Source: a virus
Length of the DNA: 29,747 nucleotides
Strand: one strand, 5' to 3'
IMG/VR virus record: IMGVR_UViG_3300037507_003888
Span: 1 to 29,747 of that record
Below the pieces are notes generated by a model that had not been told where the DNA came from, did not search any database, and saw nothing but the letters and a program-made list of their open reading frames with translations. Shown one piece after another: positions 3,018-29,636 of this stretch; position 1 is the stretch's first letter; each line of letters opens with the position of its first letter. The translations under genes and the position numbers were made by a program.

Positions 3018-3506
3018 TCAGCAGGGCGCGAACTTGAAGCATGGAGGGAAATATGGAGGAAAGAAAGGGGGGAAGAATGGAGGGAAGAAAGGAGGAAAGT
3101 ATGGAGGGAAATAAGGAGGAAAGAAAGGAGGAAAGAATGGTGGGAAAAACGGCGGGAAGAATGGAGGGAAGTATGGGGGAGTAACGGCTGGAGATGAAGT
3201 GGAAACATCGGAGGGCACGCCATAGTTTGTATTCGCCGTAACGGTAAATGTATATGCGGTGCCAGAAGTAAGACCAGTAACAGTGATTGGCGATGTGGCA
3301 CTCGTTCCCGTCAAACCGCCAGGACTTGAAGTTGCGGTATAGGTAACTGTGCCTTTACCGACATACGAAGATGGTGTGAATGCAACACTGACTGTTTGTA
3401 AGTCATTTGGGTTAGCGGCTGCAACAACTGGCGAAGCGGTGCCAGTCGGGGATGTCGGTGTCGTTGGCTTTTTCCCGCCACTGTCTTTTGGTGCTCTGCT
3501 TGCCAT
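3018..3506 (-). CDS. Fibronectin type III protein with a (PPxF)12 C-terminal tail
   Basis: The 162-aa protein has a short Thr/Pro-rich head (1-25), one FnIII-like beta-sandwich (about 32-108, ending in the typical SGTAYTFTVTANTNYG run), and then twelve consecutive Pro-Pro-x-Phe units (110-157). In these x is Phe seven times, Tyr four times and Cys once. It closes with KFAPC, so two cysteines frame the very end. The start is ATG, 3 nt after the stop of the long fibre gene, with no clear Shine-Dalgarno, so translation is probably coupled. Position and domains suggest an exposed tail or adhesion protein. FnIII domains are common on phage virions; I do not recognise the PPxF tail as a named domain. 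A rigid, aromatic extended rod that sticks to surfaces, or a substrate for modification, are both possible. Confidence 0.8.
   Translation of the reverse strand: MASRAPKDSGGKKPTTPTSPTGTASPVVAAANPNDLQTVSVAFTPSSYVGKGTVTYTATSSPGGLTGTSATSPITVTGLTSGTAYTFTVTANTNYGVPSDVSTSSPAVTPPYFPPFFPPFFPPFFPPFFPPYFPPYFPPFFPPFFPPFFPPYFPPCFKFAPC
3036..3179. repeat. 12-bp tandem repeats encoding (PPxF)12; nearly all-purine strand
   Basis: Twelve 12-bp units, each coding for Pro-Pro-x-Phe on the minus strand, make the plus strand almost purely A and G with scattered T. Units differ mainly by ggaaag/ggaag and an occasional t. Such tracts can gain or lose units by slippage and can adopt triplex structures. Confidence 0.85.
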
Positions 3507-16489: not shown

Positions 16490-17938
16490 CTACTGAGAAA
16501 TTTCTTTGATGAGGAGGTGAAACTCTTTGAGGTCATCAAACGAAATTGACGCAGTTTCCTTAACTGCTTCAGCAGACTTCTCTTCGCTTACTTCGGCTAC
16601 TGGCTCTGCCTCAACTGCTGCCTCTTCTGCTTTTGCTTCTTCGACAACCTCTTCGGTTGCTTGCTCGGAGATTGCTTCTTCTGAAATTTTTTCTTCGACA
16701 ACTTCTGTTGCAATTTCGGCAACCTGCTCGACTACTTCTTCCGACTTTGCTTCCTCAATAACCGGAGTGACTTCATCTGTGGTGTCTTCGGTGTCGTACT
16801 GTGCCAAGCGCTCAAGGATTGCTGAGTTGGCTTTTAGGGCCTCCTCGACCACTGACCTGAAGTCTTTGTCAAACTTGTTCATTGCACTCTCCTCTTTTTC
16901 GCTTTCACTATCGTAGTCATACTCTTGCTCTTCGGTGGGTAAGGCCTCCTCTACCTTGAGGGCATCTCCTCTGGCAACTACCGTGACGTTGGTTGGGTGC
17001 CAATTGCCTGCTGATTTGCCGGAAACATCGGCTCCGTCATAGTCTTCAGGCAAATCTTCCTCATCTTCGGGCTCGTCAGGGCCTGCCTCTGCCTGCATCC
17101 AAACCCTAATTAAATAAACGGGATTCTCTTCGGAACCCTCTAATTCAAGGCCTTGTGGCTCTCCGCGTAGTTTTCCGTCTGTTTCTACTCCAACCACATC
17201 ACCGTAGAAGGTGCCTTGAGTCGTGTCCCAAGAGACAATCGAACCCTTTTCGGCCATTCCCTCAACCTTTTCCATAACCACAAACGTGCGGAGTTTCATT
17301 TCTGCGTAATCGACCTCGTAGAACTCGCCGGTTCGCTCACCAGCCTCGTTGAGTTCCTCAACAAGCGCTACGTCGTCTTCGGCTTCGATGACAATGCCCT
17401 TCATCTCCTGCTCTCCGTCAAACCAAGAGATATTTGTGTCTGCGTCGATAATGTTGTCCATGTCTTTAAGTCCTTTTACGGTGAGGTCTAGTGTTTCCGC
17501 TAGTGGGGCATTAATTAGTCCTTTAAACATCATAATTGCATCGACGTTTTCGTCTGACTTTAGTTCAGGGGCGTCTCGACCCATTTCTTCGTAATGCTTG
17601 GCAATATGGCGGTACACGCCTTGTCTTGCTGCACCACGAAGCACTGTTCCCTGTCGTCCACCGTTCAGAACGGCAACCGAGTTGCCGAGAGCACGACCTG
17701 ACGCTGCGCCAGCCTTACCGCCCGCGTCAACATAATGATGGATAAACGAATAATGAGTTTTCCTAGTTCCCTTGGTATTAGGGAGTTGAAATGCAAAAAT
17801 GTCGTTGAAGTAAGCGGGTGTTGCTGGAGAGCGCATTTTCTTAAACTGCGCAGTTCTGTCCCACGCAGAAGAAGAGTCAACAGATGTTGAGTGAGAAGGA
17901 ATAGCGCGACCGTTAGGCCCCGCATCCTTCAACTCCAT
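16490..17938 (-). CDS. Probable head assembly / scaffold-like protein sharing a domain with the protease
   Basis: From the ATG at 17938 the product is 482 aa. This start has GAGGAG 6 nt upstream; an ATG six codons earlier overlaps the protease stop. Residues 13-129 (PSHSTS ... FAFQLPNTKGTRKTHYSFIH ... LNGGRQG ... HIAKHYEE) closely repeat the last 117 residues of the preceding protease gene. The middle (180-285) is beta-rich and contains GSIVSWDTTQGTFYGDVVGV, like the small Tudor/SH3-like HVA1 (DUF2945) barrels. The last roughly 130 residues are very acidic and helical (EEVVEQVAEIATEVVEEKIS), as in scaffolding proteins, and end in a hydrophobic helix (DDLKEFHLLIKEIS). A role in procapsid assembly next to the protease and capsid is likely but inferred. 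Confidence 0.65.
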   Translation of the reverse strand: MELKDAGPNGRAIPSHSTSVDSSSAWDRTAQFKKMRSPATPAYFNDIFAFQLPNTKGTRKTHYSFIHHYVDAGGKAGAASGRALGNSVAVLNGGRQGTVLRGAARQGVYRHIAKHYEEMGRDAPELKSDENVDAIMMFKGLINAPLAETLDLTVKGLKDMDNIIDADTNISWFDGEQEMKGIVIEAEDDVALVEELNEAGERTGEFYEVDYAEMKLRTFVVMEKVEGMAEKGSIVSWDTTQGTFYGDVVGVETDGKLRGEPQGLELEGSEENPVYLIRVWMQAEAGPDEPEDEEDLPEDYDGADVSGKSAGNWHPTNVTVVARGDALKVEEALPTEEQEYDYDSESEKEESAMNKFDKDFRSVVEEALKANSAILERLAQYDTEDTTDEVTPVIEEAKSEEVVEQVAEIATEVVEEKISEEAISEQATEEVVEEAKAEEAAVEAEPVAEVSEEKSAEAVKETASISFDDLKEFHLLIKEISQ

Positions 17939-17948
17939 ATCGTGCTCC

Positions 17949-20270
17949 TCAGTCATTTACTTCTTCTTTCGTCAATGGTTCAGTGATGTAGCCAGCCTTA
18001 ATCATAAGATTATCTACTTCATGGTCGGACTTTAGCGAAGGTACTTCAAAGCCGCCGTCTCGATAATGTTTCGCAAGATGATTGTAAACCGCTTTTCTAT
18101 CTGCGCCACGCAAAATAGTTCCACCTCGTGCGCCGTTTAGAACTGACATCTGAACCCTTAGTTCTCCCATTGCGGCCGCTCCGGCTTGTCCATCTTTAGA
18201 AATGTGATGGTGGATGAATGTGTAATGCGTTTTGCGAGTTCCGTCAGTGTTGGGTAACTGGTATGCAAAAATCTTCCTATAGTAGGAAGGTGACTCTGGA
18301 GAACGGACAGCCAGAATTGCGCTCCTGTTAATCGGCGTATCGTCTCTTACTGCAGTTGAGTGACTACGGATTGGCCCACCGGCTTTTGATTCAATTGCTT
18401 CCCAGTCGGCTCCCTCTTCGCTTTCTTCCCACTCAGTGATTGCTTCGGCGTAAGACTTGACCCCATCCAATTTGACAACTCCATCAGGAATTACCGCAAA
18501 CCTGCATTTACCTTCTTCTTGCACTGTTTGTTTGATGATAGAGCAAACCCCATCACCTTTGTACAGAGTGCAATTTGAGCACTTCACTCCGATGTCTTTA
18601 ACATCATTTTCTGCAGGGGAATCATAACCCGCCCAAATTCCATCGCCGTCCTCGTCGAACTTTCCGTAGACAGTTGCAATCTGTAGAAGAGATTCGTGCA
18701 ATGCTGCCTCTTCTGCCGAAAGAAGAAATCTGTGCCCGATGTGTTTTTGCTCAAGGGTCTCAAATTCTGCTTTTTCTGCTGCATAAAGAGCAGACATGTG
18801 ACGTCGTGCTTCGGCAAGGGTGTCGTGACATCCGCCTGGGACTGGACTGTCTTCACCCTCTTTTACAACTGCGTATCCGCTACAACCAGACATGTTGCTT
18901 GAAATGCGATACGGCTTACCTTCGGCTGGGCGACGACGACGAGGGCGGCGGGCACCGGGACGACCAACAACGCCTGGACGATACGGCGTACCAAAGGAAC
19001 CAGGGTTTCCTTCTGGCATATCGGTATAAACATCTTTGCGGCTGCTCAGTGGATGCTCGGATGGAAGAAGGTCGGTATCGTATGCCGCGCGACGAAAGCG
19101 TCCTGTTCGGAGAGCAAACAAAAGACCGTTGACTCTTGCCATCGCCCATTGTTCTGGTGATGAAACATTCGGACGCACCGAACTTGGATTTGTGCGATAA
19201 GCCCCGACCCCTCGTCGATAGCAAGCAGCAAGCATTGAGTAAGTGGCTCGCTTTCCTGCGGAATCTCCGTACTTCTCGTTATGGTCTGCAACTTTTTTAC
19301 GCAATGCTTTTTCTACACGAGCAGACATCGCAGGTGCTTTTTCTTCAAGATTTTCGATGTTTGTATTTTTTTCGTCTCGACGATTCATTGCCTCAACGAG
19401 TTTTGTAGACCATGTTCTTCCAGCATCTCCGCCCCAAAGTTTCCATGCGATAAGTCCAGCACCCGGATATCCGTCTGCGCCTGGTTTACTATTTGCTGGA
19501 GTGCGAAGGTCAACCTCGTGACGAGGAAAATATTTGGCAATATGTCGAACTTTTCTCGGCGCTGCAATTGTGTTGTTAACCAAATATCTGGCCGTATTTT
19601 TGCCAACGGAAGTTCCGCCACGATTGTATTCACTCGACATGTCAAGGCCCATCTGTGCCTGCTTTTTGACACCGTCTGGAATCTTGAAGTTCAGGTCTGA
19701 ATAGTCGCCTGCTTTTGATTCATCCCAGTCAATGTCTTCATCTTCTTTGATTTCTGTCAAATCATCTTTTACGCTGAGCGTTCTCGTGTTTGGTGCTGCA
19801 CCAAAAATTACTGGAGAATATTCGTAAAGTTCCAACTGCTTAATAAATCTGACCCCTGTTTTTTCATCGGTCATTGACTTGCCTTCTGGAACAGAATATC
19901 CAATTGACCACTCTTGCTCGTCAGCAAAAAACTGAACGTCGTGGAATGCGTCGCGACCGCGCGTTGTGTTTAAATTAAACTGCATTTTAACAAGAAGGGC
20001 TCCGGCGTTTTGTGAACGAAGGTCATCTGGTAGCCGCTCGTCATTGGGCATCAACTCCTCAACCTTGAGAGTTTTGGCAACTGGGATATTGGTGTCGTGA
20101 GACCAAACGCCCTTGGGGTTTCTTTTCCTGAGAGTGTTCTTGTATGCTCCCGGCTCAATAACGTCGTTTACAGAGTCAACAATGTTCGTTACCGAAACGA
20201 TTGCTTCGACGATGCCGTCAGCGTCATTGATGCCGCGAATTGAAGATACTGGAACATTCTTGCGGTCCAT
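17949..20270 (-). CDS. Multidomain HK97-family prohead protease
   Basis: The start is ATG at 20270 (AGGAGG 5-6 nt upstream; a TTG one codon earlier is ignored). The 773-aa product is about three times the usual size. Residues 1-170 are the U35 protease: catalytic His58 in GVWSHDTNIP, Ser122 in EWSIGYSVPEG, an acidic residue in ELYEYSPVIFG (147-157). There follow a helical module (about 212-300; RGGTSVGKNTARY, GADGYPGAGLIAWKLWGGDA), a second (316-400; KRATYSMLAACYRRGVGAY, QWAMARVNGLLFALRTGR), an Arg/Pro-rich hinge (430-450), SGCSGYAVVKE, a four-Cys unit (C564, C567, C576, C589; CxxC-x8-C-x12-C), and the SHST domain (634-750) that recurs in the next gene. These added modules are known to me as C-terminal parts of actinophage head proteins. 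Confidence 0.85.
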   Translation of the reverse strand: MDRKNVPVSSIRGINDADGIVEAIVSVTNIVDSVNDVIEPGAYKNTLRKRNPKGVWSHDTNIPVAKTLKVEELMPNDERLPDDLRSQNAGALLVKMQFNLNTTRGRDAFHDVQFFADEQEWSIGYSVPEGKSMTDEKTGVRFIKQLELYEYSPVIFGAAPNTRTLSVKDDLTEIKEDEDIDWDESKAGDYSDLNFKIPDGVKKQAQMGLDMSSEYNRGGTSVGKNTARYLVNNTIAAPRKVRHIAKYFPRHEVDLRTPANSKPGADGYPGAGLIAWKLWGGDAGRTWSTKLVEAMNRRDEKNTNIENLEEKAPAMSARVEKALRKKVADHNEKYGDSAGKRATYSMLAACYRRGVGAYRTNPSSVRPNVSSPEQWAMARVNGLLFALRTGRFRRAAYDTDLLPSEHPLSSRKDVYTDMPEGNPGSFGTPYRPGVVGRPGARRPRRRRPAEGKPYRISSNMSGCSGYAVVKEGEDSPVPGGCHDTLAEARRHMSALYAAEKAEFETLEQKHIGHRFLLSAEEAALHESLLQIATVYGKFDEDGDGIWAGYDSPAENDVKDIGVKCSNCTLYKGDGVCSIIKQTVQEEGKCRFAVIPDGVVKLDGVKSYAEAITEWEESEEGADWEAIESKAGGPIRSHSTAVRDDTPINRSAILAVRSPESPSYYRKIFAYQLPNTDGTRKTHYTFIHHHISKDGQAGAAAMGELRVQMSVLNGARGGTILRGADRKAVYNHLAKHYRDGGFEVPSLKSDHEVDNLMIKAGYITEPLTKEEVND

Positions 20271-20335
20271 CAAGCCTCCTGCATGTGATTGTACACCCGA
20301 GTAGGCGGCAAGACTAACTTAACAATGCGTATAGG

Positions 20336-22494: not shown

Positions 22495-22725
22495 TTATTC
22501 ACCGTCGCTTTCGAATCCTAAACCCACTGCGATTACCGCAAGACATATTCCAAGTGCGAGGAAACCAAGCGTCTCGCTAATCAAAAATCCACTAGTAGAT
22601 AAACAAACCGTGCTGGCCACCAATGCTGATGCCGATAGTCGCTCTCGTGTAAGGAACAGAAATTGTTTTGTAACAAAAAAAACTGTCACCGCAAGCAAAC
22701 CAGCAAGAATCGCTCCCACAATCAT
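22495..22725 (-). CDS. Small membrane protein upstream of the portal
   Basis: The 76-aa product has about three hydrophobic segments (2-20, 30-50, 53-71) with basic residues between the first two (KQFLFLTRERL) and an acidic C-terminus (ESDGE). This is compatible with an inner-membrane protein. AAAGGA lies 7 nt before the ATG, and its stop is followed within 2 nt by the portal start. A holin-like role is possible but not supported by any motif, and the position beside head genes is not typical for a holin. Confidence 0.6.
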   Translation of the reverse strand: MIVGAILAGLLAVTVFFVTKQFLFLTRERLSASALVASTVCLSTSGFLISETLGFLALGICLAVIAVGLGFESDGE

Positions 22726-26480: not shown

Positions 26481-28406
26481 ATGACATTATTAGACCAAGC
26501 ATTCGTGGATTCCTATTCTCAAAAATTGGCTCCTTGGGGCTTTAACGGAATGGGTGAAATCGTTTTTCTTCGAACCTATAGTCGCAAAAAGGATGATGGA
26601 AATAATGAAACGTGGATTGAAACTCTTCAGCGAGTCGTTAATGGTGCGCACGAAATCGGTGTTGACTACACCCAAGAGGAAGCCGAGAGCCTCTTTGACC
26701 ACATGTTCAATTTGCGCTGCTCATTCTCCGGCAGAGCACTTTGGCAACTTGGAACGCCTCTCGTTCAGAAATTCAATGGCTCGTCGTTAAACAACTGTTA
26801 CTTCACAAATATTGAAAAGGTTGAGGATTTCGAACTTCTTTTTGAGTATCTCATGCTTGGTGGCGGCGTTGGTTTTTCAGTAGAGCGCGCAAAAATTCAT
26901 GACCTGCCGAAAGTAAAGGCTGGGGTAAGTATCACCCATGAGCGCTCTAACGACGCTGACATCATTGTTCCAGACTCGCGACATGGATGGAAGCGTTTGC
27001 TTCACGCTGTACTGAAGTCGTATTTTGAGACCGGCAAGTCGTTCAGTTATTCCACAATTTTGATTCGTGAGTACGGTGCGCCGCTCAAGACTTTCGGTGG
27101 CACTGCTTCTGGTCCCGGTGCACTAATCGACGGAATGGCGGACATCTGCAAAGTCCTTGATGGGCGAGTTGGAAAGAAACTCCGCTCTATTGACGTTCTT
27201 GATATTTGCAACATCATCGGACGAATTGTCGTTTCTGGCTCGTCTCGTCGTTCTGCTCAGATTGCCATGGGCGACCCAGATGACGTACTGTTTTTGCGTG
27301 CGAAAAACTGGTCGACTGGTTCCATCCCTGCATGGCGCGCAAACAGCAACAATTCCATTTATGCAGACTCTTACGAAGAGATTATGCCAGAACTATGGAA
27401 GGGCTACGACGGCTCTGGAGAACCTTACGGATTACTGAATCGCAAACTCGCCCGCAGCGTAGGTCGATTGGGAGAAAAAAACCCAGATAATTCGATTGAG
27501 GGGTTTAACCCGTGTGCAGAGATTGCTCTTGCTGATGGCGAGTCCTGCAATCTATCGACAATCTTTTTGCCGAACGTAGAATCACTTGAGCAACTGAAAG
27601 AGATTTCAATTCTTCTTTATAAAGTGCAAAAGCAAATCACGCGACTTTCTTACCCGTACGAAAAAACCACAAACATCGTAAAAAAGAATGCTCGTCTTGG
27701 TCAAAGTATTACCGGCATTCTGCAAGTCAATGCCAACAAAATTGAATGGTTGGACTCCGCATACAAGAACCTTGCTTCCTTTGACGAAAAATATTCAAAG
27801 GCAAAAGGTTGGCCTACGTCTGTACGTCTTACCACTGTCCAGCCGTCTGGCACCCTCTCACTACTGCCTGGGGTAACTCCAGGAATCCATCCGGCATTTG
27901 CTCAGTACTACATCCGCAGGGTGCGTTTTGGCTCTTCTGACCCGCTGGTAGACGCATGTCGCAAGCGTGGATACAAGGTTGTTTGGGATATCGGCATCGA
28001 CGGTCGCGAAGACAGGACCCGTTACGTTGTCGAGTTCCCATGCATGTCGCCAGAAGGCTCCGTATTGGCTGCTGACATGACCGCAGTACAGCAGTTGGAA
28101 TGGGTGAAAACCATGCAAACAGTCTGGGCAGATAACGCCGTTTCAGTGACCGTGTATTACCGAAAAGAAGAGTTGTCGGAAATTAAGGATTGGCTAAAGA
28201 ACAACTACGACAACGGCGTAAAGTCGGTTTCTTTCTTGCTCCACAGCGACCACAACTTCCCGCTTCCTCCGTATGAACAGTGCACAAAACAGCAGTACGA
28301 AGAGATGCTAAAAAGCATCGACTTCTCTGTTCCGCTAAATCAAAAGTCTTTTGACTCAGATTTGGAAATAGATAACTGCGCTACTGGTGCTTGCCCGATT
28401 AAGTGA
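26481..28406 (+). CDS. nrdJ: Monomeric B12-dependent ribonucleoside-triphosphate reductase (class II)
   Basis: The 641-aa enzyme reduces ribonucleotides to deoxyribonucleotides with adenosylcobalamin. The catalytic set is complete and spaced as in the Lactobacillus leichmannii monomeric enzyme. Cys106 (LNNCYF) and Cys356 (ESCNLS) are the reducing pair, Cys345 and Glu347 lie in FNPCAEI (thiyl radical and general base), and Cys633 and Cys638 at the C-terminus (NCATGACPIK) relay electrons. TVQPSGTLSLLPGVTPGIHP is the phosphate-binding loop region. It is about 100 residues shorter than the Lactobacillus enzyme. AAGG precedes the ATG. It is one of two complete plus-strand genes. It likely supplies dNTPs for phage DNA synthesis and works without oxygen. 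No phage thioredoxin is visible. Confidence 0.95.
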   Translation: MTLLDQAFVDSYSQKLAPWGFNGMGEIVFLRTYSRKKDDGNNETWIETLQRVVNGAHEIGVDYTQEEAESLFDHMFNLRCSFSGRALWQLGTPLVQKFNGSSLNNCYFTNIEKVEDFELLFEYLMLGGGVGFSVERAKIHDLPKVKAGVSITHERSNDADIIVPDSRHGWKRLLHAVLKSYFETGKSFSYSTILIREYGAPLKTFGGTASGPGALIDGMADICKVLDGRVGKKLRSIDVLDICNIIGRIVVSGSSRRSAQIAMGDPDDVLFLRAKNWSTGSIPAWRANSNNSIYADSYEEIMPELWKGYDGSGEPYGLLNRKLARSVGRLGEKNPDNSIEGFNPCAEIALADGESCNLSTIFLPNVESLEQLKEISILLYKVQKQITRLSYPYEKTTNIVKKNARLGQSITGILQVNANKIEWLDSAYKNLASFDEKYSKAKGWPTSVRLTTVQPSGTLSLLPGVTPGIHPAFAQYYIRRVRFGSSDPLVDACRKRGYKVVWDIGIDGREDRTRYVVEFPCMSPEGSVLAADMTAVQQLEWVKTMQTVWADNAVSVTVYYRKEELSEIKDWLKNNYDNGVKSVSFLLHSDHNFPLPPYEQCTKQQYEEMLKSIDFSVPLNQKSFDSDLEIDNCATGACPIK

Positions 28407-29579
28407 TTACGGACGACCAGGCGAGTATCGCTTGGAAATCCACATCAACTCATTGCCGGTGTTGACACAGACGTATGGAACTCCGTAGAAATACGTTCGT
28501 GCTGCCGGATTTGAGCAACGCAGGTCAACAACTTGCGGTTGGGCAACGGTCGTCGTGGGCGCGAAGGTTGTCGTGGAGGCAACGGGGGCTGGAACTGTAG
28601 TTGTGGTAAAGACAGTCGTAGTGGGGGATACTGTCGTTGTTGTCGTCTGTGGGGGTGCGCCTTCAAGAACCGAATAAGCCAACAAATTTGGACTTCCTGT
28701 CCCGATGTTGAAGAGTGCTCCGCTAGTCGCAGTGGCGTTCAGCATTTGCTGCACTTCCTGCTGCGTCAAGTTCGGGTTCTTCTGCAGCATTGTTGCGACG
28801 ATGCCAGAAACAATCGGTGCCGCATTGGACGTGCCACTACTTGAACGATACGTATTTGGCGGACCGACCCATGCGCCGACAAGGTCTGAGCCCGGCGCAA
28901 AAATATCTAAGCAAGTTCCAAAATTGGAATATGATGCGCGCAATTCGTTCTTGTCGATTGCCCCTACGGAAATTGCGCTTATTTCTGATGCTGGTGAGTA
29001 CAGACAGGCATCACGATTTTGATTTCCTGCTGCTACAACGACAATCATTCCGTCTGTAATCAATTTACGCACTGCTTTGTTAAATGCCTCGGACTTAGAC
29101 ATGCCAACACTCATGTTTACGACTGCTGGAACGCCAGGTTGATGATGTTCAACCATCCAGTCGATTGCTGGGTACAGACTTGCGCTTGATGGGTTTGAAT
29201 TAGTGCAGTTCAATACGCGCACAGAAATAAGGCGCACATTCTTGGCAACTCCGTAAGTTTTGCCTCCAATGAGACTCGCAGTATGGGAGCCGTGACCAGC
29301 ACAGTCTTCTGCGCCATACCCATCCAAGATTGCCGTGTAACCAAGTTCTACGCGACCTGCGAATTCTTCGTGGGCGGAGTTGATGCCTGAATCAAAAACA
29401 TACACATTGACTCCGGTCCCGTCATGTGAATAGTCGTAACGGTCATTGAGCGTTGCTTCACGCTGGTCAACTCTGTCCAGGCCCCACGTTGGACGCCAGC
29501 CGTTATCGTTCTGCAGTGGCTGCGAAATGACCGAAGATGCCGTCAGGAACAGTGATACAAGTGCGGTAAATATTTTCAT
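28407..29579 (-). CDS. Secreted subtilisin-like serine protease (S8, proteinase K type)
   Basis: The 390-aa product has a signal peptide (MKIFTALVSLFLTASSVISQ). The catalytic domain starts almost at once (NDNGWRPTWGLDRVDQRE). Catalytic residues are Asp63 (YVFDSGIN), His96 (GHGSHTAS), oxyanion Asn155 (VVNMSVG) and Ser251 (SSGTSNAAP). The inhibitory I9 propeptide that normally sits between them is absent. Residues 311-346 are a Thr/Val-rich linker, typical of secreted actinobacterial proteins, then a small domain with Cys355 and Cys371. AAAGGA lies 7 nt before the ATG. Its stop abuts the reductase stop. It is unusual cargo for a phage; it may act on the host surface, in lysis or outside the cell, or be a host-derived gene. 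Confidence 0.9.
   Translation of the reverse strand: MKIFTALVSLFLTASSVISQPLQNDNGWRPTWGLDRVDQREATLNDRYDYSHDGTGVNVYVFDSGINSAHEEFAGRVELGYTAILDGYGAEDCAGHGSHTASLIGGKTYGVAKNVRLISVRVLNCTNSNPSSASLYPAIDWMVEHHQPGVPAVVNMSVGMSKSEAFNKAVRKLITDGMIVVVAAGNQNRDACLYSPASEISAISVGAIDKNELRASYSNFGTCLDIFAPGSDLVGAWVGPPNTYRSSSGTSNAAPIVSGIVATMLQKNPNLTQQEVQQMLNATATSGALFNIGTGSPNLLAYSVLEGAPPQTTTTTVSPTTTVFTTTTVPAPVASTTTFAPTTTVAQPQVVDLRCSNPAARTYFYGVPYVCVNTGNELMWISKRYSPGRP
28542..28649. repeat. Low-complexity Thr-rich linker region of the protease
   Basis: This stretch codes for the TTTTTV/TTTVFTTTTV/STTTFAPTTTV linker of the protease. The plus strand is rich in g and t with recurring gtcgt/gtagt triplets. Such linkers vary in length between related proteins. 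Confidence 0.7.
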
Positions 29580-29607
29580 AGTTTTTCCTTTACATTTGGT
29601 TACTTAC

Positions 29608-29636
29608 ACCCTACCCGTTTGACGGGTCAACCACAA
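29608..29636 (-). promoter_or_regulatory. Candidate promoter of the protease gene
   Basis: On the minus strand TTGTGG (29636-29631) is followed after 17 bp by TAGGGT (29613-29608), leaving a leader of about 20 nt that contains AAAGGA. A 6-bp inverted repeat ACCCGT/ACGGGT (29613-29627) lies across the spacer and could be an operator or the tail of an upstream terminator. The -35 match is weak. Confidence 0.35.

Follow-up and report, generated by a model that had tools for sequence, protein, structure and literature searches.

The window, meaning the whole 29,747-nucleotide stretch of an IMG/VR virus record that we analyzed, encodes a phage subtilase in which a proteinase K-like S8A catalytic domain follows directly on a signal peptide, with no I9 propeptide between them, a layout shared by a family of related phage proteins. 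Architecture, I9 absence, phage location, strong selection and predicted fold are all read from the sequences themselves. Rare secreted subtilases without a propeptide and phage S8 proteins are both already known; in a limited literature search we found no phage-borne, secreted and propeptide-free proteinase K-like family that combines the two.

The protein (Table 1) matches Peptidase_S8 (PF00082) at residues 54-290 with 144.8 bits against a cut-off of 21.8 (E = 4e-42), and belongs to phrog_3677, "protease", in PHROGs (1e-64). The triad D63/H96/S251 and the oxyanion residue N186 are present in 8/8 phage rows and 75/75 cellular rows of our alignment, so that the intact S8 triad reported in the initial annotation of this DNA holds across all aligned relatives. 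Cysteines 93, 125, 192 and 223 of the catalytic domain align with cysteines of cellular relatives, at what we take to be the positions of two aqualysin-type disulfides, the pairing being taken from aqualysin; these four residues, together with D35, D38 and Q39, are conserved with extracellular relatives. All phage members have a signal-peptide-like N-terminus that ends in a common Ser-Gln junction, which agrees, at the level of sequence, with the secretion proposed earlier and sets the family apart from intracellular subtilisins. The Thr-rich linker and the end containing Cys355 and Cys371 are also kept in every phage member.

Table 1. Features of the subtilase gene and its convergent neighbor in the window
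Feature	Position	Strand	Description and basis
Class II (adenosylcobalamin) ribonucleotide reductase (RNR)	26481..28406	plus	Convergent conserved neighbor of the subtilase gene
Subtilase gene	28407..29579	minus	390 aa; ATG start, stop included; ORF, Pfam S8 and PHROG
C-terminal small domain	28410..28526	minus	Residues 352-390, Cys355 and Cys371, last residues RYSPGRP; conservation, pLDDT
Thr-rich linker	28527..28670	minus	Residues 304-351; fast-evolving, pLDDT mostly <50; sequence
Proteinase K-like S8A catalytic domain	28671..29486	minus	Residues 32-303; AlphaFold2, PDB match, conservation
Catalytic Ser251 codon	28827..28829	minus	Asn comes next in all phages; alignment
Conserved strip at the mature N-terminus	29487..29522	minus	Residues 20-31 (QPLQNDNGWRPT); invariant positions and structural alignment
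Signal peptide	29523..29579	minus	Residues 1-19 (MKIFTALVSLFLTASSVIS); cleavage likely between Ser19 and Gln20; sequence
Shine-Dalgarno-like sequence	29582..29589	minus	AGGAAAAA, ahead of the ATG; direct sequence reading

We built an AlphaFold2 model of the subtilase from 83 aligned sequences, with pLDDT values mostly of 93-99 over residues 32-303 and of about 80-86 over residues 351-380. The best PDB match of the model is the Meiothermus keratinase 5wsl (Z 49.2, rmsd 1.2 Å over 281 residues, 47% identity), with aqualysin and VPR ranking close behind. Aligned with the mature keratinase, aqualysin and VPR, the model has its residues 18-20 opposite their residue 1, and residue 20 pairs with the first residue of mature VPR. 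Since the structural alignments start at mature residue 1, cleavage after Ser19 would yield the N-terminus that the other enzymes gain by removal of I9, and maturation by signal peptidase alone would seem sufficient. These alignments also bear out the earlier observation that the S8 domain comes right after the signal peptide without a propeptide. In fold, as modeled from sequence, and in sequence, the protein thus matches the mature enzymes of the S8A proteinase K-like subgroup: over the full mature chain it is 42-48% identical to 5wsl, ProteinT (8c4z), the Serratia enzyme 2b6n, aqualysin I (4dzt) and VPR (1sh7), with which it shares the triad and the four conserved cysteines. These bacterial enzymes are normally made as I9 precursors, whereas the phage enzyme lacks the I9 propeptide usual in the subgroup, a part that lies outside the definition of the catalytic domain; it differs further in two residues, with Asn for Met right after the catalytic Ser and Ile for His within the PHVAG motif, and in having a C-terminal end of its own. 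Its closest solved relatives by sequence being S8A proteinase K-like enzymes, the domain is not of the kexin-like S8B type. A type VII secretion mycosin (TIGR03921) was ruled out by a score of 133.2 against a cut-off of 278.75 bits.

Dependence on a propeptide is a textbook feature of secreted subtilases. None of the 9 distinct full-length phage proteins has one, and a Pfam scan that placed I9 above cut-off in two cellular relatives used as controls gave no I9 in the window subtilase and two other phage members even at E ≤ 1. A misplaced start hiding a propeptide was ruled out, as no more than 8 open codons separate the ATG from the stop 5′ of it here, and 4-16 in the other phages with a complete N-terminus; the in-frame upstream propeptide that the initial annotation had raised against its own reading was thus looked for and not found. 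Nor did the Pfam I9 model or a clade-tuned I9 profile, which detected two cellular controls at about 2e-17, find an I9 elsewhere in 11-12 phage records (fragments of up to 106 kb). A comparison of six phage records gave no conserved partner that is both soluble and secreted; the families with hydrophobic N-termini there comprise the protease, a two-helix membrane protein, an SLT lysozyme, a small anchored coiled-coil protein and a head-protease fusion that is not secreted. The separate folding helper suggested earlier has therefore so far failed to appear in these records, and the accompanying claim that folding needs I9 is too strong in general, the subtilase ASP of Aeromonas sobria, pernisine and Tk-subtilisin being counterexamples (PMC5638518, PMC9549277, PMC10580911). 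ASP, secreted without a propeptide and described as an exception, needs the chaperone ORF2 (PMC9549277, PMC5638518), and the folding of pernisine and Tk-subtilisin proceeds with Ca2+ and no propeptide (PMC10580911). Mesophilic subtilisins do require their propeptide (PMC10580911), so that an undetected phage or host helper is possible.

The phage location of the gene was confirmed on 13 IMG/VR contigs, namely the window and 12 more (10 with a complete N-terminus, 2 partial), whose 9 distinct full-length proteins are 65-100% identical to the window subtilase. In 10/10 members checked, the RNR adjoins the subtilase tail to tail; the stops normally abut, and one record (L004) has a small insert. 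The window also encodes portal, major head, head protease and tail genes. The same phage neighbor on 13 contigs rules out a contig chimera, the 12 further contigs exclude chance as well, and presence in host chromosomes only, the other objection foreseen in the initial annotation, does not apply. Among 80 RNR relatives, an RNR at least 87% identical is accompanied by the protease wherever the downstream sequence suffices, and no protease lies within the available flank where the RNR is at most 84% identical; 13 records of the latter kind (50-173 kb) lack it throughout. This distribution would fit a one-time gain of the protease within one phage lineage. Upstream on the same strand, the relatives encode the large terminase, an SLT lysozyme whose N-terminus carries an anchor, and small membrane proteins, followed by sugar-modifying genes, the upstream neighbors of the subtilase differing between phages.

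The catalytic domain evolves under strong purifying selection, with a dN/dS of 0.03-0.07 where dS can be estimated, which together with the fixed triad rules out a dead gene. The best conserved region is the C-terminal end, whose mean identity of 82% exceeds that of the catalytic domain and suggests a binding role; the linker and the signal peptide are the least conserved regions, at 45-46% (linker, 45%). The C-terminal end was seen in this phage family only and in none of the cellular genomes searched, and searches of 248, 198 and 396 Actinomycetota genomes, run without a positive control, returned no credible match to it. Around the active site, three positions are fixed in the phages and differ from nearly all cellular rows: the residue after the catalytic Ser is Asn in 8/8 phage rows and Met in 75/75 cellular rows, the PHVAG motif has Ile in 8/8 phage rows and His in 74/75 cellular rows, and a position near the catalytic His is Ser in 8/8 phage rows and Gly in 73/75 cellular rows. 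In subtilisins, the Met after the catalytic Ser adjoins the oxyanion hole, and its replacement alters activity and oxidation resistance. The fixed change from Met to Asn could reduce activity, possibly giving an enzyme that is milder or more specific and so tolerates the lack of an inhibitor.

We searched for relatives in 84,980 bacterial and archaeal species, each represented by one genome, the best 80 matches being 42-51% identical. The closest are secreted proteases of Acidimicrobiia, with proteins containing two S8 domains (dual-S8) at about 49-51%. In the distinct cellular S8 domains sampled, I9 lies directly upstream in 96 and Fn3 precedes 23, whereas the phage domains are preceded only by the signal peptide. 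The sampled cellular S8 domains without I9 are the second S8 domains of dual-S8 Acidimicrobiia proteins and one secreted exception (P0001). In trees, a single clade (100/100) unites the phage proteins, its long stem (0.67) arising among Acidimicrobiia domains; the best tree places them beside I9-bearing first domains (92/90), and placement with the second S8 domains is not rejected (AU p = 0.29). A Thr-rich linker right after the S8 domain, found in 9/9 phage proteins, 15/23 second domains and 5/100 domains with I9, favors descent from a second S8 domain of the dual proteins. Kinship of this gene, the sole pointer to a host, would suggest Acidimicrobiia.

The dual-S8 proteins (L030, L039, L180, L181) resemble the phage enzyme in that no I9 adjoins their second S8 domain, which often ends in NLLAYS or a similar motif followed by a Thr-rich linker; they differ as giants of about 1,940 aa in which two I9 domains and Fn3 repeats accompany the two S8 domains. 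In the two examined at full length (L180 and L181, secreted, from Acidimicrobiia G012 and G026), the two I9 domains form a tandem pair at the N-terminus and some 1,000 residues separate the S8 domains. The second S8 domain may thus be served by a distal I9 in its own chain, and so may not be chaperone-free. P0001 (L136:973-2502, G017), a cellular secreted protein, offers a precedent for the propeptide-free layout, its signal peptide coming directly before S8; unlike the phage enzyme, it keeps Met after the catalytic Ser, continues with Fn3 and sits on a very long tree branch. ASP is likewise a secreted subtilase without a propeptide, yet it is a kexin-like S8B enzyme with an external chaperone gene, ORF2, next door (PMC5638518, PMC9549277), whereas no conserved secreted neighbor was found for the phage subtilase. 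The intracellular-type subtilases of the Bacillus phages FADO, BvP and SP-15 share a phage origin and short N-termini, but have no signal peptide and are about 28-32% identical. The other phage S8 proteins compared were of intracellular type, bore I9 or had other N-termini. A distant phage S8 protein of 311 aa (L017:1675-2607; 35% identity), also without I9, is shortened in the part that links its Asp and His motifs and has no close relatives in IMG/VR.

Our tentative reading, to which we give somewhat less than an even chance, is that the gene provides an exported, self-folding proteinase K-like enzyme that, late in infection, stays on or close to the surface of the host and cuts host proteins there. 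We infer its export, its folding without a propeptide, its activity and anchoring, and its substrate and role, as follows. Sec would export the protease during infection, with no need for a zymogen step, and signal peptidase would cut after Ser19, baring the N-terminus that other enzymes gain after I9 removal. The catalytic domain would then fold outside the membrane without I9, aided by the disulfide positions and the N-terminal Asp/Gln calcium-site residues; QPLxNxxGxRP, the conserved strip, may contribute as well. Retention of the enzyme on or close to the host envelope could be due to the Thr-rich linker and the private Cys-containing end, and its substrates there would be surface or wall proteins of the host; the purpose would most likely be to aid lysis and virion release, or to strip receptors from debris. 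The context of terminase, SLT lysozyme, membrane-protein and sugar genes would fit late, envelope-directed work, and thus a surface role among the lysis, superinfection and host-surface roles raised in the initial annotation, and the position of the subtilase near the lysis genes, with several sugar genes between, is only suggestive. As for how such an enzyme arose, we consider it slightly short of an even bet that phage evolution freed a proteinase K-type enzyme from its propeptide: I9 would have been lost at the mature N-terminus, leaving signal peptidase as sole activator, and the changes Met to Asn, His to Ile and Gly to Ser, with the new C-terminal end, would permit chaperone-free folding and targeting.

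Folding by a helper in trans, either an unrelated small phage protein comparable to ORF2 or an I9 supplied by host subtilases, is in our view unlikely, despite the real precedent of ASP and the several I9 domains, even a tandem pair in one protein, encoded by Acidimicrobiia relatives, for no I9 was found in the phage records, six of them share no conserved soluble secreted partner, and the upstream neighbors vary among phages. Somewhat less probable still is that the exported protease rids the infected cell of the phage receptor or of further proteins used in adsorption, in a form of superinfection exclusion; the enzyme appears from its sequence to be secreted and anchored, a single phage lineage conserves it and phages with related RNRs lack it, and surface-sugar genes adjoin it in several members, but this role is compatible with a late exported surface protease and inseparable from it by sequence. 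The kinship with secreted Acidimicrobiia proteases, and the neighboring RNR as a sign that the phage carries metabolic genes, would also agree with a captured host extracellular protease that boosts peptide supply during infection; we think this improbable, as the fixed changes around the active site and the private C-terminal end suggest a specific target and not bulk digestion. Action within the virion, in entry or maturation, appears highly improbable: other phage S8 proteins adjoin tail genes, as in Xanthomonas phage Mallos, and the C-terminal end is strongly conserved, but a protein with a signal peptide and cysteines of the extracellular type would hardly be built into virions in the cytoplasm.

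A self-folding surface protease of this kind would point to phages of uncultured, possibly actinobacterial, bacteria that send a protease out to the surface of their hosts, which has hardly been reported for phages. As a natural, conserved and presumably mesophilic proteinase K-like family without a propeptide, these proteins are ready sequences for testing propeptide function, and they could simplify the making of proteinase K-like proteases.

Other features of the window were noted. Just upstream of the protease gene, positions 29613-29627 form a small perfect hairpin (ACCCGT-TTG-ACGGGT), possibly a terminator or control site, and L004 has a different small hairpin (GGGTC/GACCC) at about the same place. 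Near the portal gene, a 76-aa protein with two likely membrane helices (22495-22725, minus strand), present in 6/6 phage records, is a holin candidate. On the same strand, positions 3018-3506 encode an Fn3-like domain followed by the repetitive tail FPPFFPPYFPP, and the neighboring proteins at 16490-17956 and 17949-20273 have in common a duplicated module (LPNT.GTRKTHY.FIHHH) some 100 residues long, one of these proteins being a fusion with the head maturation protease.
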